Made by a program: the position numbers and the translations under genes. Positions 4,153 through 34,964 of a DNA stretch of 36,443 nt are shown piece after piece. The notes under the pieces were generated by a model that was given only the letters and a program-made list of their open reading frames with translations, had not been told where the DNA came from and ran no database searches. The stretch covers positions 1-36,443 of IMG/VR virus record IMGVR_UViG_3300048694_000673. The stretch is one strand, 5' to 3'. Position 1 is the stretch's first letter, and the number at the start of each line of letters is the position of its first letter. Source of the DNA: a virus.

Positions 4153-4890
4153 ATGGCTGGTACCAGTGCGGAAAGACAAGAGAATGGTGTTATTGAAAAA
4201 ATAAAAAATGCTGTTCAAAAAAACAAAAAGAATCCAATAACATTGAAGGCTGGTAATGTAATTATTGAAGCTGTTATTGATGCTGAAAAGTTTAAAGGAA
4301 GACAGCTTGGTGGTTCTGAGCCTTATACTGATGTTGTAATTTATTATAAAAAGAATGGAAAAATAGAGCAATTCAATTGTTCTTTAAAGGGAGAATCTGC
4401 TCCCTCATTAGCTGGTGGAGGTCTAAGGGGATTAGAATTGGCTGTTCCTGGAATAGCAAAGAAATTCATGAGAAATGCTTTTAATGAATTGCAAAAAAAG
4501 AAAAAATTAAAAACAGGCGATAAGGTTCCTGATGTTTTTGGTGAAATAAGTTCATCATCCAAAATGAAGATTGTTATAGGAAATGAAATGATGGGTGGAC
4601 CTATAGATTTTATGTACATAGGTCCAATGAATGTTGTTGGCAGATATGATGAAAAAAAGAATATCTTGTCATTAAATGGGAATTTAATTGAAGCTGAACA
4701 CTATGCTAAAACACACAAATTGTATTTTCGTTTGAGGGCAAGAAGAGAAGATCAACGATTTGATCCAGATGCTAAAGACAAAGACGGTACACCTAAAATT
4801 TATGGTATTTCTCCTTCGAAAGGAGATAGTGCAGGAAGAATAGTTGTAACAGATAAAGTTCCATCAACGGGCGTAATTATAAGGTTGTAA
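4153..4890 (+). CDS. Conserved phage protein of unknown function, late
   Basis: A 245-residue soluble protein with start ATG 4153 and AGGA 6-9 nt upstream. It resembles an unnamed conserved protein of marine T4-like phages that begins MAGTxAERQENxVIEKI. It is lysine-rich at the start, with a glycine-rich SLAGGGLRGLELAVPG stretch near residue 90 and GGPIDFMYIGPM near residue 150. No catalytic motif, signal peptide or membrane helix is evident. It is the first gene after a late promoter box and 1 nt before the ligase-like gene, which suggests a virion or head-associated role, but this is inference from position. Confidence 0.7.
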   Translation: MAGTSAERQENGVIEKIKNAVQKNKKNPITLKAGNVIIEAVIDAEKFKGRQLGGSEPYTDVVIYYKKNGKIEQFNCSLKGESAPSLAGGGLRGLELAVPGIAKKFMRNAFNELQKKKKLKTGDKVPDVFGEISSSSKMKIVIGNEMMGGPIDFMYIGPMNVVGRYDEKKNILSLNGNLIEAEHYAKTHKLYFRLRARREDQRFDPDAKDKDGTPKIYGISPSKGDSAGRIVVTDKVPSTGVIIRL

Positions 4891-4891
4891 A

Positions 4892-5332
4892 ATGCTAAAC
4901 TTTAAAACATATCTCACAGAAGCTACCGATGATGACGGTAAACTAAAACATATTCCTCACGCAGAGGATCATCCACTTCATCATGGTCATGCTGGATTTG
5001 AACATGCATATGGCGCATTAATGCAAGCACATGAACACATGGCAAACAAAGAAAAGAATAGCAATCTTACAATGAAGTATGATGGCTCACCTTCTTTAGT
5101 TTTTGGTCATCATCCAAAAACAGGTAAATTCTTTGTTGCATCAAAATCTGCATTCAATAAGAATCCTAAGATTAATTATTCAGAAAAAGATATTGAGACA
5201 AATCACGGTCATTCACCGGGTCTAGCTCATAAATTAAAACACGCACTTAAACATCTTCCTAAAGTAACACCTAAAAAAGGTGTTTATCAAGGCGATATGA
5301 TGTTTTCCCATGAGGATCTGAAACATGAGTAA
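4892..5332 (+). CDS. Ligase-like nucleotidyltransferase (DUF6267-type), N-terminal half, with capsid-targeting-like leader
   Basis: First half of a protein that is usually a single chain in marine T4-like phages (I recall it as DUF6267). Residues 1-10 (MLNFKTYLTE) line up without gaps with the T4 internal-protein capsid targeting sequence and end in LTE before A11, a gp21-type cleavage pattern. KYDGSP at 62-67 looks like motif I (KxDG) of covalent nucleotidyltransferases (DNA/RNA ligases, capping enzymes), where the lysine receives AMP or GMP. VYQGDMMF near 131-138 could be motif III. The chain is very histidine-rich. It stops at 5332, and the rest of the domain continues in another frame from 5325, with 8 nt of overlap. 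The family assignment is fairly sure; the enzymatic activity is inferred from short motifs. Confidence 0.75.
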   Translation: MLNFKTYLTEATDDDGKLKHIPHAEDHPLHHGHAGFEHAYGALMQAHEHMANKEKNSNLTMKYDGSPSLVFGHHPKTGKFFVASKSAFNKNPKINYSEKDIETNHGHSPGLAHKLKHALKHLPKVTPKKGVYQGDMMFSHEDLKHE

Positions 5333-6074
5333 AGTATCTTTTACACCAAACACAATCACTTATACTGCTCATGGGCCACAAGCAGAGAAGATAAAAAAAG
5401 CTAAAGTCGGCATTGTTGTTCATCAACAATATCACGGCAATGATCTTGAATCAATGAAAGCATCTCCTCATACCGATCATGCGACAGAATTTAAACATCA
5501 TCCAGATGTATATCATCATTCAGCCGAACATGATACAAGTAAAATAGATTATACACATAATGATCAAAAAGAATTCCATAAACACATGGCAGCCGCTAAA
5601 CATATTCACGATACATATGGTAAAAAAATGTATCCTGCTACAGCACGCCATCAAGGTGAAGGCAATCATCTAGAGACTTATATTAATCATACAGTAAGAA
5701 CAGATGAAGCGCCAACTTCTGAAGGTTTGAAGAAACATATTAAAGAAAAATTCGCTAAAGCATCAGAAAAATTAAAGTCTGAAAAAAGCAAATCAGCAAA
5801 AGAAGCCGAAGCTGGAGAACATACTAAACATATTGAAAAGAATAAAGAACATTATGATCATCTCCTATCGATGCATCATCATCTCCAACAAGCAAAAAAC
5901 GTGCTAGTAAAGAATCTTGAGAAACATGAAGGTGGATATGAGCATCATATTGATCATAATAAATCAAAACCTGAAGGATTTGTTGTGAATCATGAAGGTA
6001 AGCCAACCAAGCTTGTAAATAGAAAAGAATTTGCTCGCGCCAATCTATTGAAAGTAAAAGCATGGAAAAAATAA
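5325..6074 (+). CDS. Ligase-like nucleotidyltransferase (DUF6267-type), C-terminal half
   Basis: Second half of the protein begun at 4892. It opens directly with KVSFTPNTITYTAHG, which in relatives follows GD(L/M)MF in the same chain. KVGIVVHQQYHG near residue 28 could be motif IIIa. PEGFVV at 216-221 fits ligase motif IV (EGxVx), and the lysine-rich tail (TKLV...LLKVKAWKK) could supply motif V. A long charged helical insert (about residues 130-190) separates these. The ATG at 5325 overlaps the upstream stop (ATGAGTAA), so it may be translated by re-initiation. Alternatively a +1 shift at GAG-TAA would rejoin the two halves, or the break may be an indel in the assembly. It has no leader of its own. 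Confidence 0.7.
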   Translation: MSKVSFTPNTITYTAHGPQAEKIKKAKVGIVVHQQYHGNDLESMKASPHTDHATEFKHHPDVYHHSAEHDTSKIDYTHNDQKEFHKHMAAAKHIHDTYGKKMYPATARHQGEGNHLETYINHTVRTDEAPTSEGLKKHIKEKFAKASEKLKSEKSKSAKEAEAGEHTKHIEKNKEHYDHLLSMHHHLQQAKNVLVKNLEKHEGGYEHHIDHNKSKPEGFVVNHEGKPTKLVNRKEFARANLLKVKAWKK

Positions 6075-6229
6075 AAAACTTTAAATCATACATTACAGAG
6101 ATACAAACTAAAGATGTATTGCCTCCATCAGGTGCGGGTAATGATGCAACTGATGGAGTAGTAAAGAAATATGCAAGCGATACACCAGGACAAAAATACA
6201 AAGATATTAAAAAACAAGTAAATAAATAA
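6062..6229 (+). CDS. Small protein with capsid-targeting-like leader
   Basis: A 55-residue ORF whose ATG lies 13 nt inside the previous gene, in a different frame. Residues 1-13 (MEKIKNFKSYITE) contain the same NFKxYxTE pattern as the start of the 4892 protein and end in ITE, again matching (I/L)xE. The remainder is small and polar, with a proline/glycine-rich middle (VLPPSGAGND) and a basic C-terminus (KKQVNK). If the leader is cut, a peptide of about 42 residues would remain, like the short internal peptides of T4 heads. No known domain. The ribosome-binding site is weak, so it may depend on coupling to the upstream gene. Confidence 0.6.
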   Translation: MEKIKNFKSYITEIQTKDVLPPSGAGNDATDGVVKKYASDTPGQKYKDIKKQVNK

Positions 6230-7105: not shown

Positions 7106-7860
7106 GAAATAATCTAGTTATTGTTCCTGTAGGTTCTTCTATTGAAAGATTTTTACATAATTATAATGTTTCAAAAGAAAATCATTGGCGCCAAGCTAAT
7201 CAAGATAGAAATTATGATATTCTTGCTGTACAATATGGCGAATATGAACCCGAACAAGGTACATATGATAAATTTTACAAGATTAAAGGATTCAAATGGC
7301 CAATCTTGAAGAAACTTAATAAGATGATCGACCTTACAGAATGGGAATATATCGGTATTTATGATGATGATGTTATCTTAGACTATCAGACAATGAATAA
7401 GTCTTTTGAGTTTGCAAAAGAAAAGAATTTAAAAGCATTTCAGATTTCTTTAGCTGAAGGTTCTGAATCACAATGGCCAGTAACTCGTAATAAAAAAGAC
7501 ATTATCTATACATATACCAATTTCATTGAGATAATGTGTCCAGTATTTAATAGAATTAGTCTTGAAAAGGTACTTAAATTGATTGATTCATATGATGTTT
7601 ATACTGGCTGGGGTATAGATTGTATATTATCAGAATATCTAGAGACTGATCCCGCTGTATTGCATTTTATCAAGATGTTTCATCCACCTCGTCCAGAGAC
7701 TGGTAGTGAGTATGATAAGTATAAAGCGTTTAGTGAAATGGATGAATTGTTCAAGAATGTATATCCAAAGATAATGCAACAAAGTGGTAGAGATATAAAA
7801 ATAGATTACACAAGATTTAAAGATGAAGTGAAGCAGATTATTTTTAATACTGGAGTTTAA
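7102..7860 (+). CDS. Putative glycosyltransferase, DUF707-like
   Basis: A 252-residue protein with YIGIYDDDVILD near residue 91, a DDD metal-binding motif after a hydrophobic strand, and GWGIDCILSEYL near residue 170, both features of DUF707-like putative glycosyltransferases. The MFHPPRPETGSEYDKYK stretch near residue 196 is also typical, with a histidine that could coordinate the metal. The start overlaps the previous stop (ATGA), indicating translational coupling, and the epimerase gene follows after 1 nt. The sugar and acceptor cannot be told from sequence. Confidence 0.7.
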   Translation: MRNNLVIVPVGSSIERFLHNYNVSKENHWRQANQDRNYDILAVQYGEYEPEQGTYDKFYKIKGFKWPILKKLNKMIDLTEWEYIGIYDDDVILDYQTMNKSFEFAKEKNLKAFQISLAEGSESQWPVTRNKKDIIYTYTNFIEIMCPVFNRISLEKVLKLIDSYDVYTGWGIDCILSEYLETDPAVLHFIKMFHPPRPETGSEYDKYKAFSEMDELFKNVYPKIMQQSGRDIKIDYTRFKDEVKQIIFNTGV

Positions 7861-7861
7861 T

Positions 7862-8773
7862 ATGAATGTTATTGTTACAGGTGGAGCTGGATTTATTGGA
7901 TCACATATAGTTGATCAACTTGTTGATAAAGGTTATAAAGTTAAAGTTATTGATAATGAATCATCAACAGTTCATGAGAGATTTTATTATAATAGAGAAG
8001 CTGATTATTATCCATTTGATATAACTGATTATGAATCAACACGAAATCTATACAATGACGTTGATTTTGTGTTTCATTTAGCGGCTGAGTCAAGAATTCA
8101 GCCAGCTATTGAAAATCCCATTCTAGCTATTAAAACTAATACATTAGGTACAGGAACCGTATTACAATGTGCAAGAGAAGCTGGTGTTAAAGGAGTTATA
8201 TACTCATCAACATCTTCTGCGTATGGATTGAGAAATAAAGGTGCGTTACATGAAGAATTATCTGATGATTGTTTAAATCCTTATTCAGTTTCTAAAGTAT
8301 CGGGTGAAAAACTATGTAAAATGTATTCAGATTTGTTTGGTTTATCTACAGTAGTTTTCAGATATTTTAATGTATATGGTCCGAGAGAACCTATTAAAGG
8401 TCCTTATGCACCTGTTGTTGGACTTTTCTTGAGACAGAGAAAAGATAATCAACCTTTAACTATTGTTGGTGATGGTAGTCAACGAAGAGATTTTACGCAT
8501 GTATATGATGTAGTTGATGCTAATATTAGAGCTATGGACAAGATTAAAGAAGGAACAGTGTATAAAGGTGAATTGATTAATATAGGTACAGGTCTTAATC
8601 ATTCTGTATTAGAATTAGCTATGAAAATATCAGATTCTATCAAGTTTATTCCACCTAGAATTGGTGAAGCTAAAGAAACATTGGCTAATACTACAAAAGC
8701 ACATAAACTTCTTGGATGGATTCCAAAGGGAAACATTTTAAAATATATTCAGGAAGAATTGGAGAAAAAATGA
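7862..8773 (+). CDS. NAD-dependent nucleotide-sugar epimerase/dehydratase (GalE-like)
   Basis: Extended short-chain dehydrogenase/reductase acting on a nucleotide sugar. The Rossmann NAD motif GGAGFIGS is at residues 7-14, with acidic D31 after the second strand. The catalytic triad is present as SSTSSAYG (115-122) and Y141-SVS-K145. YFNVYGPRE and the substrate-side GDGSQRRDFTHVYDV follow in the usual order. The length of 303 residues is normal. Together with the mutase at 10150, the simplest role is making UDP-galactose from UDP-glucose, but other epimerases share all these motifs. GGAG precedes the ATG, and the end overlaps the methyltransferase by 4 nt. Confidence 0.88.
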   Translation: MNVIVTGGAGFIGSHIVDQLVDKGYKVKVIDNESSTVHERFYYNREADYYPFDITDYESTRNLYNDVDFVFHLAAESRIQPAIENPILAIKTNTLGTGTVLQCAREAGVKGVIYSSTSSAYGLRNKGALHEELSDDCLNPYSVSKVSGEKLCKMYSDLFGLSTVVFRYFNVYGPREPIKGPYAPVVGLFLRQRKDNQPLTIVGDGSQRRDFTHVYDVVDANIRAMDKIKEGTVYKGELINIGTGLNHSVLELAMKISDSIKFIPPRIGEAKETLANTTKAHKLLGWIPKGNILKYIQEELEKK

Positions 8774-9357
8774 ATATATTTCTTGATTTAGGAACTCATT
8801 ATGGACAAGGTTTAAGAGAGTTTATTGATAGATTCAAAATGGATAGCAGTTGGATTATCCATACATTCGAAGCTAATCCTAATACCTATAAAGTCTTTAT
8901 GGATGAATATCATAAATTAACACCTTGGGTAATACCACACAATGAAGCTGTTTCTGCTCATTATGGCACATTGACTGTTAATATTGAGACACCTCCCAAT
9001 GAAGATGCAACAGGAATGGGTTCTTCTGTGATTGATCTTGATAACTGGAATCCTTGGGGCGGTGAATTACGTCAAAATTTTAATACAAAGGCTACTGTTC
9101 CATGTATTGATCTATCCGATTTCATTTCTAAGAACTTCAAAGAAGATGATACTTTGATAATCAAGATGGACATTGAGGGTTCAGAATATGAAACTCTTGA
9201 AAAGATGATTAATGATAATATCATGGAAAGAGTTAATTTCATTGCTGTTGAATGGCATTCCAGATTCTTTGTGAAGAAATTAGAAATAGAAGAAAAAGAA
9301 AGAAATATTATTAAAAGAATAAATGAACTTAACATTAATTTGGAATCGTGGAAATGA
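8770..9357 (+). CDS. FkbM-family SAM-dependent methyltransferase
   Basis: A 195-residue Rossmann-fold methyltransferase. The start at 8770 is an ATGA overlap with the epimerase, with GGAG 6 nt upstream. A reading from 8716 would run back into the epimerase gene. DLGTHYGQG near residue 5 is motif I for S-adenosylmethionine, HTFEANPNTY near residue 33 contains the acidic ribose-binding residue, and LIIKMDIEGSEYETL near residue 130 is the signature of the FkbM type (xKxDIEGxE). FkbM enzymes usually O-methylate sugars, which fits the surrounding glycosyltransferases. The target is unknown. Confidence 0.85.
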   Translation: MNIFLDLGTHYGQGLREFIDRFKMDSSWIIHTFEANPNTYKVFMDEYHKLTPWVIPHNEAVSAHYGTLTVNIETPPNEDATGMGSSVIDLDNWNPWGGELRQNFNTKATVPCIDLSDFISKNFKEDDTLIIKMDIEGSEYETLEKMINDNIMERVNFIAVEWHSRFFVKKLEIEEKERNIIKRINELNINLESWK

Positions 9358-10157
9358 GTCAAGGCTATTTTTTAATTGCTTTAGGAAAAAGATATATTGA
9401 TGAATGCTGTCTCTTAGCAAATACTATACGAAAATCAGGTGATCAAAGACCTATAAGTCTATTAGTTCATGATGAAGATAAAGATTACGCAAAAGAAAAA
9501 GAATTATTTGATAAGTTAGTTTCATTTGAACCTTTATCTGGTTTATATTATCAATGTGAGACAAACTTTGAGAAGTATTGTCTATATCCACGAGTTAATT
9601 TCGATTATTACATACCTTACGACGAAAACATCATTGTGGATAGTGATGTTTTGTGTCAGTATAATCCCGATCATGTTTGGAATTTCTGTCAGAATAACAA
9701 TTACGGTATTGTTATGCAAGGTAGAATCAATGATCCAAATTGGCATTGGGGTACTATTGGAGAAGTATCTAAAGAAGTTGGTAAGCATGTTCCTCATGTA
9801 CATGGTGGATTTTTCTATTTGAGAAAAAATACTTTTCTTACACCATTCTTTGAGTGCGCCAAGCATGTATTTTTTAATTATGATAAGTATAAATGTAAAA
9901 GATATTTCCGTGGCGGCAGAGTAGATGAAATTCTTTTTGCTATCAGTTATGCTCATTTTGGTATTGAGCCAGTCGAATTTGATGAATATCCTATAATGAC
10001 ATTCAATTATTCATCTAATATTGATGTTCCATCCAAGCTGCAAACAGAAGGTGGACAGAATATAGAAATGAATAATTATCCTCCATTTATTCATATGTTT
10101 GACAAAATGGAAGGTAATGAATTTCAGAATTTGTATAGGAAAATAATGAATGTATGA
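9354..10157 (+). CDS. Putative glycosyltransferase, GT8-like
   Basis: A 267-residue protein starting at an ATGA overlap with the methyltransferase (an upstream GTG at 9348 is less likely). The N-terminus (YFLIALGKRYIDECCLLANTIRKSG) and ENIIVDSDVL near residue 98, a DSD form of the DxD motif, resemble GT8-type retaining glycosyltransferases. HVHGGFFYLRKN near residue 147 and the late IHMFDKMEG histidine fit the acceptor and metal sites. It overlaps the mutase gene by 8 nt. Fold assignment is fairly good; sugar specificity is not visible. Confidence 0.7.
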   Translation: MSQGYFLIALGKRYIDECCLLANTIRKSGDQRPISLLVHDEDKDYAKEKELFDKLVSFEPLSGLYYQCETNFEKYCLYPRVNFDYYIPYDENIIVDSDVLCQYNPDHVWNFCQNNNYGIVMQGRINDPNWHWGTIGEVSKEVGKHVPHVHGGFFYLRKNTFLTPFFECAKHVFFNYDKYKCKRYFRGGRVDEILFAISYAHFGIEPVEFDEYPIMTFNYSSNIDVPSKLQTEGGQNIEMNNYPPFIHMFDKMEGNEFQNLYRKIMNV

Positions 10158-11244
10158 TTATTTGATTGTGGGATCTGGTTTTTTTGGTTCCACTTTTGCA
10201 AGACTAGCAACAGATGATGGTAAAAAATGTCTTGTACTTGATAAAAGATCACATATTGGCGGAAATGCATACAGTTCAAGAACTTTAGATATCGATGTTC
10301 ATCAATACGGACCACATATTTTTCATACGAATTCCAAAGATATCTGGTCTTTTGTCAATAAGTTTTCTGAATTTAATAACTTCATCCTAACTCCTAAATC
10401 ATTTGTGAATGGTAGATTATACTCATTACCATTCAATATGAATACATTTCAAGAGATATGGAATATCATTAAACCAGATGACGCTAAAGCAATCATCGAA
10501 AAACAAAAGTTTAAAGGTATACCATCCAATCTAGAAGAACAAGCTTTAAGTCTGGTAGGTAAAGAAATATATGATCTTCTAATCAAAGGTTATACCCAAA
10601 AACAATGGAAAAAAGAACCAAAAGACTTACCATCTTTTATCATCAAACGATTACCAGTTAGATATACCTACGATAATAATTATTTTAATGATAGATATCA
10701 AGGCATACCCGTCGATGGATATGACAAACTGTTTGAAAGAATGTTAGATGGAATCGATGTTCAATTAAATACCGATTTTTTATCAGATAGAGAGTATCTG
10801 ACAAGAATGACAAAAAGAGTTGTATATACCGGTAAGATAGATGAATACTTTGATTATGAATATGGTGATTTAGAGTATCGTGGATTATCTTTTGTCCATG
10901 AAAAACTTGATGTAGAGAACTATCAAGGTACTGCTATGGTTAATTATCCTTCATTGGATGTACCCTGGACAAGAATAGTAGAACATAAGCATTTTACCGG
11001 TGTATCATCCAAATATACTATCATAACCAAAGAATATCCCGTATCATGTGGTAGAAATGATATTCCTTATTATCCTATAAATGACGAAAAAAACAATACA
11101 AATTACACAAAATACAAAGAAAAAGCTGCAAATGAGAGTAATGTTATCTTTGGAGGTAGACTTTCTGAGTATATGTACTATGATATGCATCAGGTAATAG
11201 GATCAGCTATGGCAAAGTATAGAAAAGAAAAAGATTATAAATAA
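10150..11244 (+). CDS. glf: UDP-galactopyranose mutase
   Basis: Flavoenzyme that converts UDP-galactopyranose to UDP-galactofuranose, the donor for galactofuranose-containing glycans. The FAD-binding motif is GSGFFGSTFARL near residue 8, followed by the second nucleotide strand (KCLVLDKRSHIGGNAYS) and HQYGPHIFHTNS, all highly characteristic of Glf. KGYTQKQWKKEP near residue 148 and RLPVRYTYDNNYFNDRYQG near 172 contain the family's substrate-binding tryptophan and arginine/tyrosines. FGGRLSEYMYYDMHQ near the end is the C-terminal FAD/substrate segment. The length of 364 residues is normal. It closes the sugar cassette, and a late promoter box overlaps its stop. Confidence 0.93.
   Translation: MYDYLIVGSGFFGSTFARLATDDGKKCLVLDKRSHIGGNAYSSRTLDIDVHQYGPHIFHTNSKDIWSFVNKFSEFNNFILTPKSFVNGRLYSLPFNMNTFQEIWNIIKPDDAKAIIEKQKFKGIPSNLEEQALSLVGKEIYDLLIKGYTQKQWKKEPKDLPSFIIKRLPVRYTYDNNYFNDRYQGIPVDGYDKLFERMLDGIDVQLNTDFLSDREYLTRMTKRVVYTGKIDEYFDYEYGDLEYRGLSFVHEKLDVENYQGTAMVNYPSLDVPWTRIVEHKHFTGVSSKYTIITKEYPVSCGRNDIPYYPINDEKNNTNYTKYKEKAANESNVIFGGRLSEYMYYDMHQVIGSAMAKYRKEKDYK
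11236..11243 (+). promoter_or_regulatory. T4-type late promoter box TATAAATA
   Basis: Exact TATAAATA overlapping the stop codon of the mutase gene and 30 nt upstream of the ATG at 11274. It has the same arrangement as the box at 4119, and both precede a gene or run of genes with a capsid-targeting-like leader. Confidence 0.7.
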
Positions 11245-11273: not shown

Positions 11274-13241
11274 ATGAAATTTAAAGAATTCCTATTAGAA
11301 TCCGAGGAAAAACACGGCGTCTTAGCGTTTGGACGCATGAATCCTCCAACTACCGGTCATGAAAAATTAGTCAATAAGGTTAAAGAGATAGCCAAGGAAG
11401 TTGGTGGAGAACATCATGTTGTTCTTTCAGCATCCCAGGATAAAGCTAAAAATCCTCTTTCAGCCGCTCAGAAGCAAAAACATGCTAAACGAGCATTTCC
11501 AAATACCAATATATCGGTAGCTACCAAAGAACATCCAACATTCCTTCAACATGCTGCTAAACTTCATAAAGCAGGTGTTACTCATCTTCACATGATTGCA
11601 GGTTCAGATCGCACTGAAGAATATAAGAAAAAGCTTCATCAATACAATGGTACCCATAAAGGTGCATTATATAATTTCAAAAAGATAACTGTTCATAGTT
11701 CTGGTGAACGTGATCCGGATGCGGAAGGAACAGAAGGTATGTCAGCATCCAAGATGCGCGAACATGCTAAGAATGGTAATTATAACGAATTTAAAAAAGG
11801 TATACCTTCTCATGTATCACATGAACATGCCAAAGAGATGTATCATGATGTTAGAAAAGGTATGGGATTACATGAATCTGTAAATGAAGCATTTGATCAG
11901 ATGCTTACTGAAGGTGTTCATGATAGAGGTATATTTAAAGCTGTTTTCATGGCAGGTGGTCCAGGATCGGGTAAAGACTTTGTGATGAAGTCTATTTTTG
12001 GTGAATCGGGCAATGCAGCATATGGTACTAGTACCACATCAGGATTGATTGAGATTAATTCAGACAAAGCATTTGAGTATCTAATGGATCAAAATGGTTT
12101 AGATAAGAAGATGCCCGATTCAGAAGATCAGCAACGTGATGTGTTAAGAGGTAAAGCGAAGAATATTAAAGAACTTCGTCAAAGATTGGCTATATCTGGA
12201 AGAAATGGTTTAATTATAAATGGAACTGGTGATGATCCAGAAAAATATGGTCAATTAAATGATGTATTGAAAAAACTTGGTTATGAAACCAAGATGATAT
12301 TAGTCACTACTTCTGATGAAACATCCCAAGAAAGAAACAAGAAACGTGGTGCTAGTGGTAGTAGAGAAGTGAAAGAACCCATCAGAAAAGCAAAGTGGGA
12401 AGGTGTTCAGAAATCTAAAGATGCTTTCAAGGATATGTTTGGTGATGATTTTCTCGAATTTGATAATGATATAGATTTGAAATCAGATAAAGTACCAGAT
12501 GAATTGAAAAAACAAAAAACAGAAGAGCTTTTGAGTATTTTCAAAAATGTTAATAAATGGATCGATAAGCCAGTTAATGGTGAACAAGCTAAAAGCTGGA
12601 TTGGTGGTCAATTAAAATCATCTGATAATCTTCAAGTATCTAAACAAAAACCACCAGCTGGTTCTAATGCATCGGCACAAGCACAACAGATGGGTCTAGA
12701 ATATTATGGTTTTGGAAGATATGGTAAAGATGGTAAAACTATGTATCATAGCATTCATGATAGATTAGTACCTGTTGTTAAAGGTGTAAAAGAAAGTATT
12801 GATGATGATTTTGATGAAATTATTTCAGAGTCTTATGGATTGTCTGATGATTCTTCAAGAAGATTGCTTCTTTTAGGAACAGACATAAGTGAAGAAGATA
12901 CAGAAACAAGAATATCAACAATCGATAATTCTGATATATCAGAAACGGAGAATACTAATGAAAGCTTTAATAGAGAAGGTAAAAAAGTTATTTCAGAAGG
13001 AAGAATCTATAGTGATAGAGGAAATAGCTATAGTACCAGAAAAGAAGATGGAAGAAACGGATATCAAGAAATTGCCGAAGAAAAAGAGAAAGTACACAAA
13101 AAAATCAGTTTAAATAAATTGAAGATTAAATTAAATCTAAAGCCACAAAACATTGATGATGAGTTTGGTAAAACGGATCAGGATGATGCAATAGATGGAC
13201 CTGAATTTTTAAGACCTCCATTGGGAAGCACAAGGGATTAA
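11274..13241 (+). CDS. NadR-like fusion: cytidylyltransferase (NMNAT-like) domain plus P-loop kinase, with capsid-targeting-like leader
   Basis: A 655-residue modular protein. Residues 1-9 (MKFKEFLLE) resemble the T4 capsid targeting sequence and end in LLE. Residues about 14-195 form a nucleotidyltransferase domain with FGRMNPPTTGH (the (H/T)xGH site) and MSASKMR at 156-162, the counterpart of the ISxTxxR motif. Residues about 215-425 form a P-loop kinase with Walker A GGPGSGKD (228-235) and a zeta-toxin/polynucleotide-kinase-like layout. The C-terminal 200 residues are low-complexity, ending in a conserved-looking tail (DEFGKTDQDDAIDGPEFL). NMNAT plus kinase is the NadR architecture, so NAD synthesis is possible, but specificity is unproven. 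Protease-like sites (SVNE205, MLTE213, IISE519, VISE575) sit between modules. Confidence 0.8.
   Translation: MKFKEFLLESEEKHGVLAFGRMNPPTTGHEKLVNKVKEIAKEVGGEHHVVLSASQDKAKNPLSAAQKQKHAKRAFPNTNISVATKEHPTFLQHAAKLHKAGVTHLHMIAGSDRTEEYKKKLHQYNGTHKGALYNFKKITVHSSGERDPDAEGTEGMSASKMREHAKNGNYNEFKKGIPSHVSHEHAKEMYHDVRKGMGLHESVNEAFDQMLTEGVHDRGIFKAVFMAGGPGSGKDFVMKSIFGESGNAAYGTSTTSGLIEINSDKAFEYLMDQNGLDKKMPDSEDQQRDVLRGKAKNIKELRQRLAISGRNGLIINGTGDDPEKYGQLNDVLKKLGYETKMILVTTSDETSQERNKKRGASGSREVKEPIRKAKWEGVQKSKDAFKDMFGDDFLEFDNDIDLKSDKVPDELKKQKTEELLSIFKNVNKWIDKPVNGEQAKSWIGGQLKSSDNLQVSKQKPPAGSNASAQAQQMGLEYYGFGRYGKDGKTMYHSIHDRLVPVVKGVKESIDDDFDEIISESYGLSDDSSRRLLLLGTDISEEDTETRISTIDNSDISETENTNESFNREGKKVISEGRIYSDRGNSYSTRKEDGRNGYQEIAEEKEKVHKKISLNKLKIKLNLKPQNIDDEFGKTDQDDAIDGPEFLRPPLGSTRD
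12958..13113 (+). CDS. Possible small basic gene overlapping in another frame
   Basis: A 51-residue reading frame fully inside the 11274 gene, shifted against it. It has a strong ribosome-binding site (GGAG at 12947-12950, 7-nt spacing before ATG 12958) and a protein-like composition: an amphipathic start (MKALIEKVKKLFQKEE) and a lysine-rich tail (KLPKKKRKYTKKSV). In the main frame this stretch is polar low-complexity sequence. It may be a real overlapping gene or a by-product of AT-rich coding. Confidence 0.35.
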   Translation: MKALIEKVKKLFQKEESIVIEEIAIVPEKKMEETDIKKLPKKKRKYTKKSV

Positions 13242-13242
13242 C

Positions 13243-13821
13243 ATGAAAAATCTTAAGAATTATCTTACTGAATTAGATGAAAAGCTTCAAGAGACAACTA
13301 TAAGTGAGGCTATTGACTGGCATGTAAAAGAACAAGTACCATTGATTGAATCTATTTTTCGAGTTGGTTCAGAGAAATATTTTCAATTATTTCGTGAAGC
13401 AAGAGAGATGTTGAATAATGGTGCATTTGATCATTCATCATTAACTAATCTTGATCTTTCTATTTTAAGAGAAACTGATTTAGGTATTATTGTTGAACAT
13501 GAAGGTAAAATGGTACCATTAGATTGTCCTATGATTGAAGAGGAAGAGAAGCATCCTCCTATTGGACAGCCAAAGCGTGGTGGAACTAAGAAGTTTTATG
13601 TATATGTGAGGAAACCTGATGGTGGTATCAAGAAAGTAAGTTGGGGTGATACTACAGGATTATCTGTTAAGATGAATAATCCTGAGAGAAGAAAGTCATT
13701 TGCTGCAAGGCATAAGTGTTCTATTCAGAAAGATAGAACAAGTGCTGCATATTGGGCATGTAATACTCCTCGATACGCAAAGAGTTTAGGATTATCTGGT
13801 GGTGGAAACTTCTATTGGTAA
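13243..13821 (+). CDS. Conserved phage protein with capsid-targeting-like leader
   Basis: A 192-residue protein, one nucleotide after the previous gene. Residues 1-10 (MKNLKNYLTE) align without gaps to the T4 capsid targeting sequence and end in LTE; a second site of the same kind (TISE22 before A23) follows. The C-terminal 100 residues (KKFYVYVRKPDGGIKKVSWGD, then a Cys/Trp-containing AAYWACNTPRYAKSLGLSGGG) form a module that I recall as common in marine phage proteins with no known function. Cys and basic residues in ARHKCSIQKDR...YWAC could bind a metal, but only two cysteines are present. Its end overlaps the next gene by 23 nt. Confidence 0.75.
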   Translation: MKNLKNYLTELDEKLQETTISEAIDWHVKEQVPLIESIFRVGSEKYFQLFREAREMLNNGAFDHSSLTNLDLSILRETDLGIIVEHEGKMVPLDCPMIEEEEKHPPIGQPKRGGTKKFYVYVRKPDGGIKKVSWGDTTGLSVKMNNPERRKSFAARHKCSIQKDRTSAAYWACNTPRYAKSLGLSGGGNFYW

Positions 13822-18598: not shown

Positions 18599-19185
18599 TT
18601 TCTTGGATTTCGTTTATACCTGAATCAAGTATAATAATGATAGTACATACGCTATTGGTAATAGGTATAGTTGCGTATTTTGCATCTAGATATTCAGGAA
18701 TATATAAGTTTATTTTATCTCCAATAGCTATAATTATCATTATTTCTACCATATTTGCAGAAGGTATATATTATAATCAGAAAAAATATCAAGAGCAAAT
18801 GCAAGAATATCAAAACAAGATACATGATGCGGAAGAAGAAGCTAAGAAAGCTAGTGATAATATACGAATTAAGTATATTGATAAAGTAAAAGTCATAAAG
18901 GAAACTAGTGATGAGAATGTTAAATACATTGAAAAAGTTGTTACACAATATGATAGTAGCTGTACTTTGTCTAACGCTGCAATCATGCTCCACAATAGTT
19001 CCAGTCAAAATGTCGTGGCCAGAAGTTCCGGAGGAATTGATGAAGGAACCTCCGATGTTAAAGCAAGTGAACTCCTTAAAGTCATCACAGACAACTATTC
19101 AACCTATTACCAAGTAAGAGAACAATTACTTGGATGGCAAGATTGGTATAAGGAACAAAAGAAAATATATGAAAGTGTGAAATGA
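18595..19185 (+). CDS. Inner-membrane spanin (Rz-like)
   Basis: A 196-residue lysis protein predicted to sit in the inner membrane and reach through the periplasm. Two hydrophobic segments (about residues 8-30 and 38-57) are followed by a long charged coiled coil (QKKYQEQMQEYQNKIHDAEEE and on) and a C-terminal domain with SCTLSNAAIMLHNSSSQN and NYSTYYQVREQLLGWQDWY, which resembles Rz-like proteins. A second, lipoprotein frame lies inside it at 18911-19117, the Rz/Rz1 layout. The pair should fuse inner and outer membranes in the last step of lysis. Two N-terminal hydrophobic segments instead of one is unusual. It overlaps both neighbours by 4 nt. Confidence 0.8.
   Translation: MISWISFIPESSIIMIVHTLLVIGIVAYFASRYSGIYKFILSPIAIIIIISTIFAEGIYYNQKKYQEQMQEYQNKIHDAEEEAKKASDNIRIKYIDKVKVIKETSDENVKYIEKVVTQYDSSCTLSNAAIMLHNSSSQNVVARSSGGIDEGTSDVKASELLKVITDNYSTYYQVREQLLGWQDWYKEQKKIYESVK
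18911..19117 (+). CDS. Nested outer-membrane spanin lipoprotein (Rz1-like)
   Basis: A 68-residue ORF entirely inside the i-spanin gene in another frame (an earlier GTG lies at 18908). A basic start (MRMLNTLKKLLHN), a hydrophobic stretch and a lipobox (LQSC, Cys26) form a lipoprotein signal. The mature part STIVPVKMSWPEVPEELMKEPPML is proline-rich, as in Rz1-type o-spanins, and would be anchored in the outer membrane. Complete nesting in Rz is the arrangement of phage lambda. Alternative starts ATG 18920 and 18953 exist; 18953 would give a shorter signal lacking basic residues. Confidence 0.75.
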   Translation: MRMLNTLKKLLHNMIVAVLCLTLQSCSTIVPVKMSWPEVPEELMKEPPMLKQVNSLKSSQTTIQPITK

Positions 19186-21044
19186 AAAAATTTAGTGAAT
19201 ATGATGAAAAACAGAATAAAGAACCTGAACACAAATCTCTTTTTGAAGAAATTTTATTCAAAACAAGAAAAAATAAAAAGTATTCAGAAAAAAATGAAAT
19301 TCAAGAAGAATTCATTCAAGAGTCTGAACTTGTAATTGAATCCGAACCTGAACCTGAACCTGAACCAATAAAACAAATAGTAACAGAAGTTACTGCTACT
19401 GATAATGATGGTATTTTACTTAAATTAAACAAAGGTGAAAAGGGTGATAAAGGAGATCCTGGTCCAGAAGGTCCTATTGGTCCTATGGGTCCACAAGGTG
19501 AGCGTGGTGAAACAGGATTAAGAGGAATTCAAGGATATCCGGGAATACAAGGACCTGTAGGTCCAGAAGGTCCTATTGGTCCAGAAGGTCCTATTGGTCC
19601 AAAAGGTAATAAAGGTGATCCAGGTTCACAAGGTAAACCCGGACCTAAAGGAGAAAAAGGATCAAAAGGTGATAAGGGTGACACTGGCCCTATTGGTCCT
19701 ATAGGTCCAAGTGGAGGTCCAATAGGACCTCAAGGTCCAGCTGGCCCGCAAGGCGAAAAAGGTGAGAGGGGTGAAAAAGGTGAAAAAGGTGATCCTGGTG
19801 ATATCACAAAGATTAGTGAGTCTATTACAAAATTAAATGAAGATGTTAGCAGAAGAATTAATAAAGTTGTTTCGGATTTTGGTGTACTATCTGCATCAGG
19901 TGGTTCAGGTTCATATTGGTTATATGATTTAGGTGATACGGATCATAGTATAAAAAATGCGACAAATGGTCAAGTATTAACATATAATTCATCAACAAGC
20001 AAATGGATCGCACAAGATCCTACTGGTGGCTCAGGTGGCTCAGGCATCGATCAATTTGCAAGAGATACAGCAAATTCAGCTAATGTATTGTCACAATCAG
20101 CCTATGCATTCGCTAATACTGTTAATGTAAAGACTGATTCAGCTTATGCATTCGCTAATACTGTTAATGTAAAGACTGATTCAGCTTATGCATTCGCTAA
20201 TACTGTTAATGTAAAGACTGATTCAGCTTATGCATTTGCTAATACTGTTAATGTAAAGACTGATGCTGCTTATGCATTCGCTAATACTGTTAATGTAAAG
20301 ACTGATTCAGCTTATGCGTTTGCTAATACTGTTAATGTAAAGACTGATTCAGCTTATGCATTTGCTAATACTGTTAATGTAAAGACTGATGCTGCTTATG
20401 CATTCGCTAATACTGTTAATGTAAAGACTGATGCTGCTTATGCATTTGCTAATACTGTTAATGTAAAGACTGATGCTGCTTATGCATTCGCTAATACTGT
20501 TAATGTAAAGACTGATTCAGCTTATGCGTTTGCTAATACTGTTAATGTAAAGACTGATGCTGCTTATGCATTCGCTAATACTGTTAATGTAAAGACTGAT
20601 TCAGCTTATGCGTTTGCTAATACTGTTAATGTGTTTGCACAAGCCGCATTTAATTACGCGAATACTGCTTTAACTGCAAATAGTGTATTATCGCCGGCAT
20701 CTAATAGTAGTGTAGCGAATAGTGTTGGTTATTTAGGAATTCCTCAAAATAGTCAATCAAGCAATTATACATTAACTATTGCTGATCAGAGTAAACATAT
20801 ATACGTTACTGCTAATTCTACTATTACTATTCCAGCAAATTCATCTGTGTCATTTCCACTTGGTTCAACATTTTCTGTTATTACTGCTGGAGGTGTTACT
20901 GCAAACGTAGCAATAACAACGGATAATTTATATCTTGGTGGTATTGGTAGCACAGGAACTAGAACTATATCGCCATATGGTATGGCAACTGCTATTAAGG
21001 TAACGGCTAATACTTGGTTTATTTCGGGTGCTGGTGTTGCATAA
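19182..21044 (+). CDS. Collagen-like fibre protein with tandem 14-residue repeats
   Basis: A 620-residue fibre-type protein. Residues 1-84 are charged, with a PEPEPEP stretch. Residues 85-205 are collagen-like Gly-X-Y: 40 triplets interrupted by one extra glycine at about 178, which should form a trimeric rod. After a linker, about residues 306-484 hold 13 copies of a 14-residue unit (consensus SAYAFANTVNVKTD). The C-terminal 110 residues (YTLTIADQSKHIYVTANSTITIP onward) look like a beta-rich virion domain found in other phage structural proteins. It is probably a tail or head fibre that touches the host. The start overlaps the spanin stop by 4 nt. MKKFSEYDE resembles the leader of internal proteins but lacks the (L/I)xE end. 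Confidence 0.85.
   Translation: MKKFSEYDEKQNKEPEHKSLFEEILFKTRKNKKYSEKNEIQEEFIQESELVIESEPEPEPEPIKQIVTEVTATDNDGILLKLNKGEKGDKGDPGPEGPIGPMGPQGERGETGLRGIQGYPGIQGPVGPEGPIGPEGPIGPKGNKGDPGSQGKPGPKGEKGSKGDKGDTGPIGPIGPSGGPIGPQGPAGPQGEKGERGEKGEKGDPGDITKISESITKLNEDVSRRINKVVSDFGVLSASGGSGSYWLYDLGDTDHSIKNATNGQVLTYNSSTSKWIAQDPTGGSGGSGIDQFARDTANSANVLSQSAYAFANTVNVKTDSAYAFANTVNVKTDSAYAFANTVNVKTDSAYAFANTVNVKTDAAYAFANTVNVKTDSAYAFANTVNVKTDSAYAFANTVNVKTDAAYAFANTVNVKTDAAYAFANTVNVKTDAAYAFANTVNVKTDSAYAFANTVNVKTDAAYAFANTVNVKTDSAYAFANTVNVFAQAAFNYANTALTANSVLSPASNSSVANSVGYLGIPQNSQSSNYTLTIADQSKHIYVTANSTITIPANSSVSFPLGSTFSVITAGGVTANVAITTDNLYLGGIGSTGTRTISPYGMATAIKVTANTWFISGAGVA
19434..19796 (+). repeat. Collagen-like Gly-X-Y coding repeat
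   Basis: Forty Gly-X-Y triplets, many as GPI GPE, GEK GDK or GPK. The phase is broken once by a single extra glycine codon (31 triplets, one Gly, then 9 triplets). Confidence 0.9.
20097..20633 (+). repeat. 13-copy 42-bp tandem repeat
   Basis: In-frame direct repeats of a 42-bp unit encoding (S/A)AYAFANTVNVKTD, starting at 20097. The copies are almost identical at DNA level; differences are mainly TCA/GCT in the first codon and CATTCG, CATTTG or CGTTTG later. The last copy lacks the KTD codons. Such near identity suggests recent expansion and copy-number variation by recombination or replication slippage. Confidence 0.95.
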
Positions 21045-28801: not shown

Positions 28802-29409
28802 TAGAAGATGCAGAATGCTGGATTAAATATCCACACTTAAGAAATTACTTTAACAAACTTTGGTTTTCTGATCAATTAGATTATAACTGTGGACCTTGTG
28901 GTGTTCCTGTGCCACAGGATGGTAAGTATGTTATTCGTCCAATATATAATTTATCGGGTATGGGACGTGGTGCAAAGATTGTATATCTTAAAAAGAATCA
29001 AACTATCATTAAGCCTGGTTATTTCTGGTGTGAATATTTTGAAGGTCCACAATACAGCATAGATTATAAATTTGATCAATATTATTTCAAGCCAATATTA
29101 GCTGTAGAAGGTATTAGAGATCCAGATAAACTGTATAAATTTTTATCATGGAAAAAGACGAATAAAGAGATATATCTCCAACATCCTATCTTTTTCAGAA
29201 TTAAATATGCAGAATATATTAATGTAGAATTTATTGGTGAAAAACCAATAGAGATTCATTTTAGAAGAAATCCAGACTTTTTAAATCATGATTATAATGA
29301 AATTAAAGTAGTCTGGGCTAGTGATAATATCGATATATCGTCGGAATTAATCTCTTGCAGTCAAGAAGAGATTGAAGATGATAAAAGATTAGGTTTTATA
29401 CCAGTTTAA
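28798..29409 (+). CDS. Conserved phage protein of unknown function
   Basis: A 203-residue protein starting at an ATGA overlap with nrdB (reading from 28780 would run into nrdB). It contains DYNCGPCGVPVPQDGKYVIRP, IYNLSGMGRGAKIVYL and, near the end, EFIGEKPIEIHFRRNPDF. I recall proteins of this kind in marine T4-like phages without known role. The E(I/V)H.R near a C-terminal strand and RP(I/V)xNLxGMG pattern remind me of ATP-grasp-like folds, but I cannot confirm that. The CGPC pair could be redox-active. Its 3' end overlaps the convergent Dps gene by 14 nt. Confidence 0.7.
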   Translation: MIEDAECWIKYPHLRNYFNKLWFSDQLDYNCGPCGVPVPQDGKYVIRPIYNLSGMGRGAKIVYLKKNQTIIKPGYFWCEYFEGPQYSIDYKFDQYYFKPILAVEGIRDPDKLYKFLSWKKTNKEIYLQHPIFFRIKYAEYINVEFIGEKPIEIHFRRNPDFLNHDYNEIKVVWASDNIDISSELISCSQEEIEDDKRLGFIPV

Positions 29410-29839
29410 GAAAACTTCTCAACATCCAGTGGTGTTTATCATGAGCACCTATTCTATCTTGGATGAAATTAGAAAGTCCCTGTTCATTGGCCGCATTGGC
29501 TTGTTTGAATGCATCATAAAGTGATGCACGAACAATATCATTATCTGCAAGAAGAATCGTAATCATATCTCTAGCTGTAGGAACTGTCAATTCATCTTGA
29601 ATAGATGAAAGTTCTATATATCTACTTAATGCACCTGGTGCATAAGAATCTAGATAGCGGATATGTTCAGCAATAGGATCTACCGCTGCCCACAATTCTG
29701 AGTAAAGATTGCCGAAGAAGTCGTGCAATTCAGAGAAGAACATGCCTTCAACATTCCAATGAAAATTATGTGATTTCAAGTACAAAGAAAAGGTATTTGC
29801 AAGAACCTTTTTCATTGATTCAGTTAATTCTGTTTGCAT
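29396..29839 (-). CDS. dps: Dps-family ferritin (DNA protection during starvation)
   Basis: The only convincing minus-strand gene. A 147-residue four-helix ferritin-like protein of the Dps family, which forms a 12-subunit cage, oxidises Fe(II) with peroxide and limits hydroxyl radical damage to DNA. Ferroxidase residues H27 (SHNFHWNVEG), H39 (ELHDF), D54 and E58 (VDPIAEHI) have the spacing of E. coli H51, H63, D78 and E82. The basic N-terminal DNA-binding tail of E. coli Dps is absent, so DNA binding is uncertain. GAGGT precedes the ATG, and a minus-strand TATAAATA box lies about 41 nt upstream, suggesting late expression. Confidence 0.88.
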   Translation of the reverse strand: MQTELTESMKKVLANTFSLYLKSHNFHWNVEGMFFSELHDFFGNLYSELWAAVDPIAEHIRYLDSYAPGALSRYIELSSIQDELTVPTARDMITILLADNDIVRASLYDAFKQANAANEQGLSNFIQDRIGAHDKHHWMLRSFLKLV

Positions 29840-33933: not shown

Positions 33934-33953
33934 GAGTGAAACTGGAGTATATT

Positions 33954-34964
33954 ATGAGAAAACTTGCGACTATTCGGAAAATTAATGATATCAAGTCTAT
34001 TCCTAATGCGGATGCTATTGAGGTAGCTACTGTTGATGGATGGCAGGTTGTTGTTAAGAGGGGTGAATATAAGATTGGTGATTTGGCTATCTACTGTGAG
34101 ATTGATAGTTGGATTCCCAATTCTATTGCATCGTTTCTTTCTAAAGGAAAAGAACCCAGAGTATATCAGAATATTGCGGGTGAAAGACTGAGGACTGTTA
34201 AACTGCGTGGGCAAATCAGTCAAGGTTTATTGCTTCCTTGCAATATTATTCCGAGACAAGTAGAATTGGGTGAGGATGTTTCAGAAGAATTAAACATTAA
34301 CAAATGGGAAATGGAAATTCCTGCTCAGTTGAGAGGAACTGTGAGAGGATCATTTCCTTCATTTATTCCGAAAACCGATCAAGAAAGAATTCAGAATCTG
34401 GTTCATGAATTGGAACAATGGAAAGGTTCTAATGAACTATGGGAAATCACTGAAAAATTGGATGGTTCTTCAATGACAGTTTATGTAAATCAAGGTTATG
34501 ATGGTGTATGTTCGAGAAATCTTGATTTGAAGCGGGATGATAACAATTCATTTTGGAAAGTAGCTATTCAAGAGAGAATTCATGATAGAATTCGTGAAGT
34601 GTTTGGATCAAGAAATATTGCTTTACAAGGTGAATTGATTGGTCTAGGTGTTCAGGGAAACAAGTACAATCTGCAAGAATTGAAGTTTTATCTGTTTGAT
34701 ATCTTTGATATTGATCGGCAGATATATATTTCTGCAAGAGAGAGACATGATTTTTGTTTTTATATGGCTCTTAATCATGTGCCTGTGATGACTGTTAGAA
34801 GTTTGGATAAAGATGTTACTGTTGCAAGTCTATTGAAGCTTGCGGAAGGACCTTCTTTCCTTAATCTTAGAGTAGAAAAAGAAGGATATGTTTATAAGAA
34901 TATTCGTGATTCGAAGATTTCTTTTAAAACTATATCTAACAAGTTTCTTTTAGGGGAAAAATAA
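33954..34964 (+). CDS. RNA ligase with N-terminal OB-like domain (DraRnl/Rnl5-like)
   Basis: A 336-residue ATP-dependent RNA ligase. The start at 33954 (MRKLATIRKI, GGAG 8 nt upstream) is preferred to GTG 33936. Residues 1-110 (PNADAIEVATVDGWQVVVK, GDLAIYCEIDSWIP) match the N-terminal OB-like domain of Deinococcus-type RNA ligase. The nucleotidyltransferase core has motif I EKLDGSS with Lys168, SRN (188-190), LQGELIG (motif III), EGYVYKN (motif IV) and SFKTISNKF (motif V), so all main motifs are present. It may seal nicked RNA, for example tRNA cut by host defence. It is driven by the consensus promoter just upstream. Confidence 0.88.
   Translation: MRKLATIRKINDIKSIPNADAIEVATVDGWQVVVKRGEYKIGDLAIYCEIDSWIPNSIASFLSKGKEPRVYQNIAGERLRTVKLRGQISQGLLLPCNIIPRQVELGEDVSEELNINKWEMEIPAQLRGTVRGSFPSFIPKTDQERIQNLVHELEQWKGSNELWEITEKLDGSSMTVYVNQGYDGVCSRNLDLKRDDNNSFWKVAIQERIHDRIREVFGSRNIALQGELIGLGVQGNKYNLQELKFYLFDIFDIDRQIYISARERHDFCFYMALNHVPVMTVRSLDKDVTVASLLKLAEGPSFLNLRVEKEGYVYKNIRDSKISFKTISNKFLLGEK

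Follow-up and report, generated by a model that had tools for sequence, protein, structure and literature searches.

The DUF6267 gene is common among T4-like phages from seas and lakes, and its conserved motifs and a predicted structure make it most likely that the product is a strongly divergent enzyme of the RNA-ligase type. The copy studied here lies in a 36,443-nt stretch of viral DNA (IMG/VR record IMGVR_UViG_3300048694_000673), referred to as the window. On balance, we favour the reading that the protein is a divergent covalent nucleotidyltransferase of this type that acts on broken RNA and that, in the lineage of the window, would be packaged by means of a leader and injected. DUF6267 has so far been without an assigned activity, and it was named by no paper in the literature searched. 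If assigned to the RNA-ligase type, this common gene of ocean viruses acquires a function that can be tested, and the assignment could explain how broken RNA is handled in T4-like phages without a recognisable Rnl1 or Rnl2.

Positions 4892-6074 had been taken as one protein in the initial annotation. Instead, the gene was found as two overlapping open reading frames (ORFs) split by a one-base frame change (Table 1). Both pieces exceeded the curated cut-off of 27 for PF19782 (DUF6267), with scores of 159.9 and 162.7 bits. The relatives inspected in IMG/VR were single ORFs, mostly of about 385-415 residues, and when one base was skipped at 5324 a continuous window protein of 393 residues was obtained that follows L001, the closest intact relative (76% identical), across the joint. 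Both observations favour a gene that was broken by a recent one-base indel or was mis-sequenced, in which case the window copy would give no full enzyme, whatever the family does. We find this account of the window copy as easy to accept as to doubt, because the two halves keep all catalytic positions and the second ORF starts from an ATG of its own at 5325, with GAGG upstream, so that translation as two pieces is possible. A contig near-identical to the window and spanning the joint was searched for and none was found; the origin of the break was therefore left at three candidates, and it may be a sequencing error, a recent indel or a genuine two-piece gene.

Table 1. Features of the DUF6267 gene and of neighbouring genes in the window
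Feature	Positions	Strand	Basis or remark
Upstream gene, possibly restriction-endonuclease-like (YTDVVI...NCSLK)	4153..4890	+	Resemblance of motifs only; no significant hhalign match
Leader MLNFKTYLTE in the capsid-targeting register of T4; prohead protease predicted to cut behind Glu10	4892..4921	+	IPIII register; cleavage inferred
DUF6267 N-terminal piece, 146 aa: leader and motifs I, Ia and III	4892..5332	+	PF19782 positions 2-124, E 1.5e-46
Motif I, KYDGSP, nucleophile candidate Lys62	5075..5092	+	K, D, G invariant; residues 62-67 of joined protein
Motif III, QGD	5288..5296	+	Invariant in 255 sequences; residues 133-135 of joined protein
Frame joint: second-frame TGA 5319-5321, ATG 5325-5327, first-frame TAA 5330-5332	5319..5332	+	Sequence
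C-terminal piece of DUF6267 in the +1 frame, 249 aa, with motifs IIIa, IV and V and the helical insert	5325..6074	+	PF19782 positions 132-373, E 2.2e-47
Motif IIIa, KVGIVVHQQY	5403..5432	+	Gly, His, Tyr conserved; residues 171-180 of joined protein
Approximate extent of the helices inserted between motifs IIIa and IV	5556..5918	+	Helices 221-341 of L001 model
Motif IV, PEGFV	5970..5984	+	E, G invariant; residues 360-364 of joined protein
Motif V, KLVNR	6009..6023	+	K, V, R invariant; residues 373-377 of joined protein
Gene with leader-like start MKFKEFLLE, cytidylyltransferase/NMNAT-like and P-loop kinase domains	11274..13241	+	PF01467 E 3.4e-4, PF06414 E 1.1e-13, PF13671 E 7e-10

The ligase-like motifs that had been listed for this protein were all present in the joined protein and in the order given, QGD lying inside the proposed YQGDMMF. 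The lysine-rich tail that had been put forward as motif V gave way to KLVNR, and the unusual forms of motifs III and V had been overlooked. Invariance was first counted in 57 diverse homologues and afterwards in a larger set of 255 distinct sequences, gathered using the KxDG motif. In the numbering of L001, the invariant residues were K61, D63 and G64 of motif I, K84, Q132-G133-D134 of motif III, H176 of motif IIIa, E360-G361 of motif IV, and K372, V374 and R376 of motif V. Because the larger set had been gathered with KxDG, the count for this motif was redone on ORFs picked by motifs IV and V alone. KxDG was found upstream in 323 of 323 relatives, its second, variable place being Trp, Tyr, His or Met; the motif-I lysine, whose conservation in homologues had been set beforehand as a point on which the assignment might fall, was invariant. 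Two features of the superfamily were missing from DUF6267, namely the Glu of motif III, in place of which an invariant Asp (QGD) was found, and the KxK of motif V, which reads KxVxR, without the second Lys and with V374 and R376 invariant. A pattern of five ordered motifs, composed after the DUF6267 family had been seen, was scanned over 2189 ORF stretches and matched only DUF6267 proteins and a genuine RNA ligase, that of contig L431. A looser five-motif pattern additionally matched T4 Rnl1 and one chance family.

An AlphaFold2 model of L001, built with the 57-sequence alignment, had a pLDDT of 90.6 and a pTM of 0.88, with low confidence in the leader part. The eight best rows for this model in a Foldseek search of the PDB were ligases, none of them below an E value of 0.001, and a comparison of the Foldseek candidates with VIA-align 2 gave RNA or DNA ligases in all of the best 50 PDB rows. 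The Z scores were 9.3 for Naegleria RNA ligase, 8.4 for fungal Trl1, 8.3 for T4 Rnl2, 8.1 for REL1, 8.0 for T4 Rnl1 and 6.9 and below for DNA ligases; since a Z of 7-8 can arise for unrelated models and the best value is barely above this, the fold argument lies in the uniform list of ligases together with the motifs and not in Z alone. The structure prediction against ligases that the initial annotation had asked for thus returned a ligase-type fold. A profile search of PDB sequences with DUF6267 gave no ligases, only coiled coils and other chance rows. The hhalign comparison of the family with the window's own RNA ligase gave a probability of 0.2%, no better than an unrelated epimerase, and Smith-Waterman scores against T4 Rnl1 were inside the shuffled range for most members. 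With these tests of kinship at the sequence level having failed, the case rests on the motifs and the predicted fold, which together argue that DUF6267 very probably has the fold of the ligase-type covalent nucleotidyltransferases.

The distance from the His of motif IIIa to motif IV is 179-239 residues, a good part of it made up of long helices packed as a bundle. The naturally short DUF6267 proteins of S-SCSM1 and S-CREM2 (294 and 295 residues, respectively) were missing much of this stretch and kept the motifs, so the insert looks as if it had been added to a ligase-like core. Only about 20 residues follow motif V, with no OB or other C-terminal domain.

DUF6267 was found in 460 of 50,697 phage records, mostly those of marine cyanophages, of Synechococcus and Prochlorococcus. 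The GTDB genomes contained 38 loci, which are probably phage-derived; almost all of them lie on contigs from MAGs or single-cell genomes. No relatives were found in a scan with the member from a Pseudoalteromonas phage. Neither PF09511 nor PF09414 was matched in 12 DUF6267-bearing phage records, 7 of which are contigs and not complete genomes; T4 has ligases of both families and lacks DUF6267. A canonical RNA ligase is encoded separately in the window, at 33936-34964 on the plus strand (PF09414, E 1e-27; PF21189 OB domain), and is identical to that of L431, the nearest relative of the window found in IMG/VR. Since the phage of the window already has this ligase, RNA sealing by DUF6267 would be redundant there.

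The window copy of DUF6267 begins with a leader in the register of T4 IPIII, in which residues 4 and 7 serve targeting and residues 8 and 10 processing (PMC9026906). A strict leader was present in 78 of 79 members of the window's clade and in 41 of 78 Melnitz-like members; none of the 79 HTVC008M-like and none of the 77 P-HM1-like members had one, which ruled out the leader as a trait of the whole family. A link between leader and histidine-richness was also rejected: only the freshwater clade (L001-L080) is rich in histidine, with about 10% (10.2%) compared to 1-3% in other clades, and the Melnitz-like clade, about half of which bears the leader, is not. On one freshwater contig with 159 ORFs (G001), the leader was found on three consecutive genes, encoding DUF6267, a HAD protein and a nucleotidyltransferase-kinase, and on one further ORF.

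For S-CREM2, 727 ORFs of at least 60 codons were checked against the published virion proteome (PMC10665884 Table 3). The exact leader register was found in 3 of the 727, and all three, a SAM hydrolase, an APH/ChoK-like kinase and a cytidylyltransferase, are in that proteome; this correlation is one of small numbers, with the exact-register test made in one phage. It is matched by the cytidylyltransferases that were detected in virions of S-SCSM1, with MKSFLQFLKE, and of S-SZBM1, with MRFRQFIIE in a register shifted by one (PMC9602691, PMC9146016). Contaminants are possible in CsCl-purified virions, according to the authors of the virion-proteome papers. Leaderless DUF6267 was absent from the published virion tables of S-SZBM1 and S-CREM2, and the record of S-SCSM1 does not label its leaderless DUF6267 as a virion protein. 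From its usual neighbours DUF6267 had been expected among the S-SCSM1 virion proteins, but the labelled ones were nuclease-like and NMNAT-like. A prohead protease (PF03420, S77 type) was found in all complete genomes checked, the window being a fragment. We lean slightly towards packaging of DUF6267 in the head in this lineage. The earlier proposal of head packaging stands insofar as the leader fits the IPIII register and marks only virion proteins in S-CREM2; it is weakened by the large clades without a leader and by the three virion lists. The findings on the leader point to a simple rule by which the enzymes carried in the heads of these phages could be predicted from sequence.

Other leader-like starts were also seen. 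A small ORF at 6062-6229 (plus strand) overlaps the end of DUF6267 and starts MEKIKNFKSYITE, which is leader-like and shifted by three residues, and a 192-residue protein with a phrog_7595 match at 13243-13821 (plus strand) starts MKNLKNYLTE. In S-CREM2 (OR473000), a virion-detected protein annotated as Cas9 (7704-10313, minus strand) has a leader-like FASFMAEA about 20 residues from its annotated start, and its true start may be a different one.

The cytidylyltransferase/NMNAT-like gene lies downstream of DUF6267 in many clades and is fused to it in S-PM2 and relatives; its cyanophage form, T4-GC190, has been detected in virions (PMC3037559). Directly upstream of DUF6267, the marine clades have several mutually dissimilar families of PxD...SLK proteins. 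One of these (e.g. L101:1863-2966) was modelled as a Type II restriction endonuclease with a pLDDT of 81 and with Z scores of 10.8 for HinP1I, 9.9 for MspI, 7.3 for HhaI endonuclease and 4.0 for the next match. Another (phrog_1462) has one member labelled as a virion protein in S-SCSM1. The two upstream nuclease-like families were not joined to each other by hhalign, nor was the upstream gene of the window joined to one of the two. A HAD protein of the freshwater clade resembles phrog_415 'polynucleotide kinase' (E 6e-11), and on some contigs of that clade this protein and a P-loop kinase domain (PF06414, PF13671) adjoin DUF6267; neither the HAD nor the kinase proteins gave a match in searches of PDB sequences. 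The DUF6267 gene also lies beside those for UvsX and a DnaB-type helicase. Elsewhere in the window, a long protein at 19182-21044 (plus strand) has collagen-like GxP repeats and, after these, many copies of a unit close to AYAFANTVNVKTD, and a minus-strand ORF at 29396-29839 looks Dps/ferritin-like, a similar-looking ORF being present just upstream of DUF6267 in L001.

In the proposed mechanism, the nucleophile would be Lys62 of KxDG, whose attack on ATP would give an enzyme-AMP intermediate, a step that could be helped by the Glu of motif IV, the Lys and Arg of motif V and the acidic residue of QGD. The AMP would be passed to a 5'-phosphate end, which would then be joined to a 3'-OH end, and the helical insert may give the grip on the substrate that other ligases get from an added domain. 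The likeliest substrate would be broken RNA, in T4-like phages without a detected Rnl1 or Rnl2. In the lineage of the window, the leader of the T4 capsid-targeting type would direct DUF6267 into the core of the prohead; once cut after Glu10 by the prohead protease, the packaged protein would enter the cell along with the DNA. We consider active adenylylation by DUF6267 probable and the sealing of RNA moderately likely. The atypical motifs III and V and the failure to find a sequence-level link to ligases would speak against the RNA-ligase reading. Also against it, the window copy is split and leaderless DUF6267 is absent from three virion lists.

DUF6267 could instead be a ligase for DNA ends or nicks that is partnered with the neighbouring proteins of restriction-endonuclease fold, the nuclease cutting and DUF6267 sealing selected ends in the repair or recombination of phage DNA. 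The upstream slot in the marine clades, with one family modelling as HinP1I/MspI, and the adjoining UvsX and DnaB-type helicase genes favour this arrangement, but we regard it as unlikely, as RNA ligases came above DNA ligases in the fold comparison, if by little, and the OB domain after motif V is absent. The fused or adjacent NMNAT-like domains suggest another role, in which a covalent nucleotidyltransferase that does not ligate would transfer a nucleotide to the 5' end of RNA, to a protein or to a small molecule, perhaps together with the NMNAT-like domain that is its fusion partner in S-PM2. The atypical motifs III and V and the lack of an accessory ligase domain would suit such an enzyme; the closest folds among the best 50 rows were, however, ligases and not capping enzymes, which makes this role quite improbable. 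Least credible is a catalytically inactive descendant of a ligase that serves as a nucleic-acid binding or core protein. Such a protein would be in keeping with the Asp of motif III, the missing second Lys of motif V and the high Lys and His content in the window's clade, but the invariance of K61, D63, G64, K84, E360, K372 and R376 over 255 sequences is a mark of catalytic selection.

An attractive but unproven extension of the RNA-ligase reading is that some T4-like phage heads carry a co-injected set of nucleic-acid enzymes that cut, heal and seal, as a pre-made counter-defence at entry. In this set DUF6267 would do the sealing, alongside a nuclease of restriction-endonuclease fold, a P-loop kinase with an NMNAT-like nucleotidyltransferase and a HAD phosphatase, and one shared capsid-targeting leader would direct several of these enzymes. 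We regard this extension as unlikely.

Both halves of the window protein are members of PF19782 (DUF6267; phrog_455, cyanophage T4-GC 71) by profile score. Compared to other members, the window copy is split, and it has a leader that is absent from the marine cyanophage members. With T4 internal proteins (IPIII), the leader of the window shares an aromatic residue at positions 4 and 7, Leu or Ile at 8 and Glu at 10; in contrast to IPIII, many DUF6267 clades are without a leader, and the packaging and cleavage of DUF6267 are predicted.

Among ligases, the best fold match was the Naegleria gruberi RNA ligase (Rnl5 type, PDB 5cot, 6vt3), aligned over 184 residues with an rmsd of 3.7. The two proteins have the same motif order, but DUF6267 is only 12% identical, lacks the N-terminal OB domain, and differs by its helical insert, QGD and KxVxR. 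With T4 RNA ligase 1 (PF09511, PDB 9do4, 2c5u) it shares KxDG(S), a conserved Lys about 20-23 residues further on, EG[YF]V and, 12-13 residues beyond it, the Lys of motif V. In contrast to this ligase, DUF6267 has neither the Rnl1 C-terminal domain nor a PF09511 family match: the profile gave E 0.13 and 12.5 bits against a window piece, below its cut-off of 28.3, and PF09511 was not among the families listed for the A2 members. The adenylation-domain fold of T4 RNA ligase 2 (PF09414) is common to the DUF6267 model, whereas the Asp of motif III and the motif V without a second Lys set DUF6267 apart. The PF09414 profile matched the controls, T4 and the window's own ligase, and did not match DUF6267. 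The OB domain that follows motif V in DNA ligases and capping enzymes is absent. DUF6267 is thus RNA-ligase-like by its fold and motif order, and by profile it stands outside the Rnl1 and Rnl2 families.
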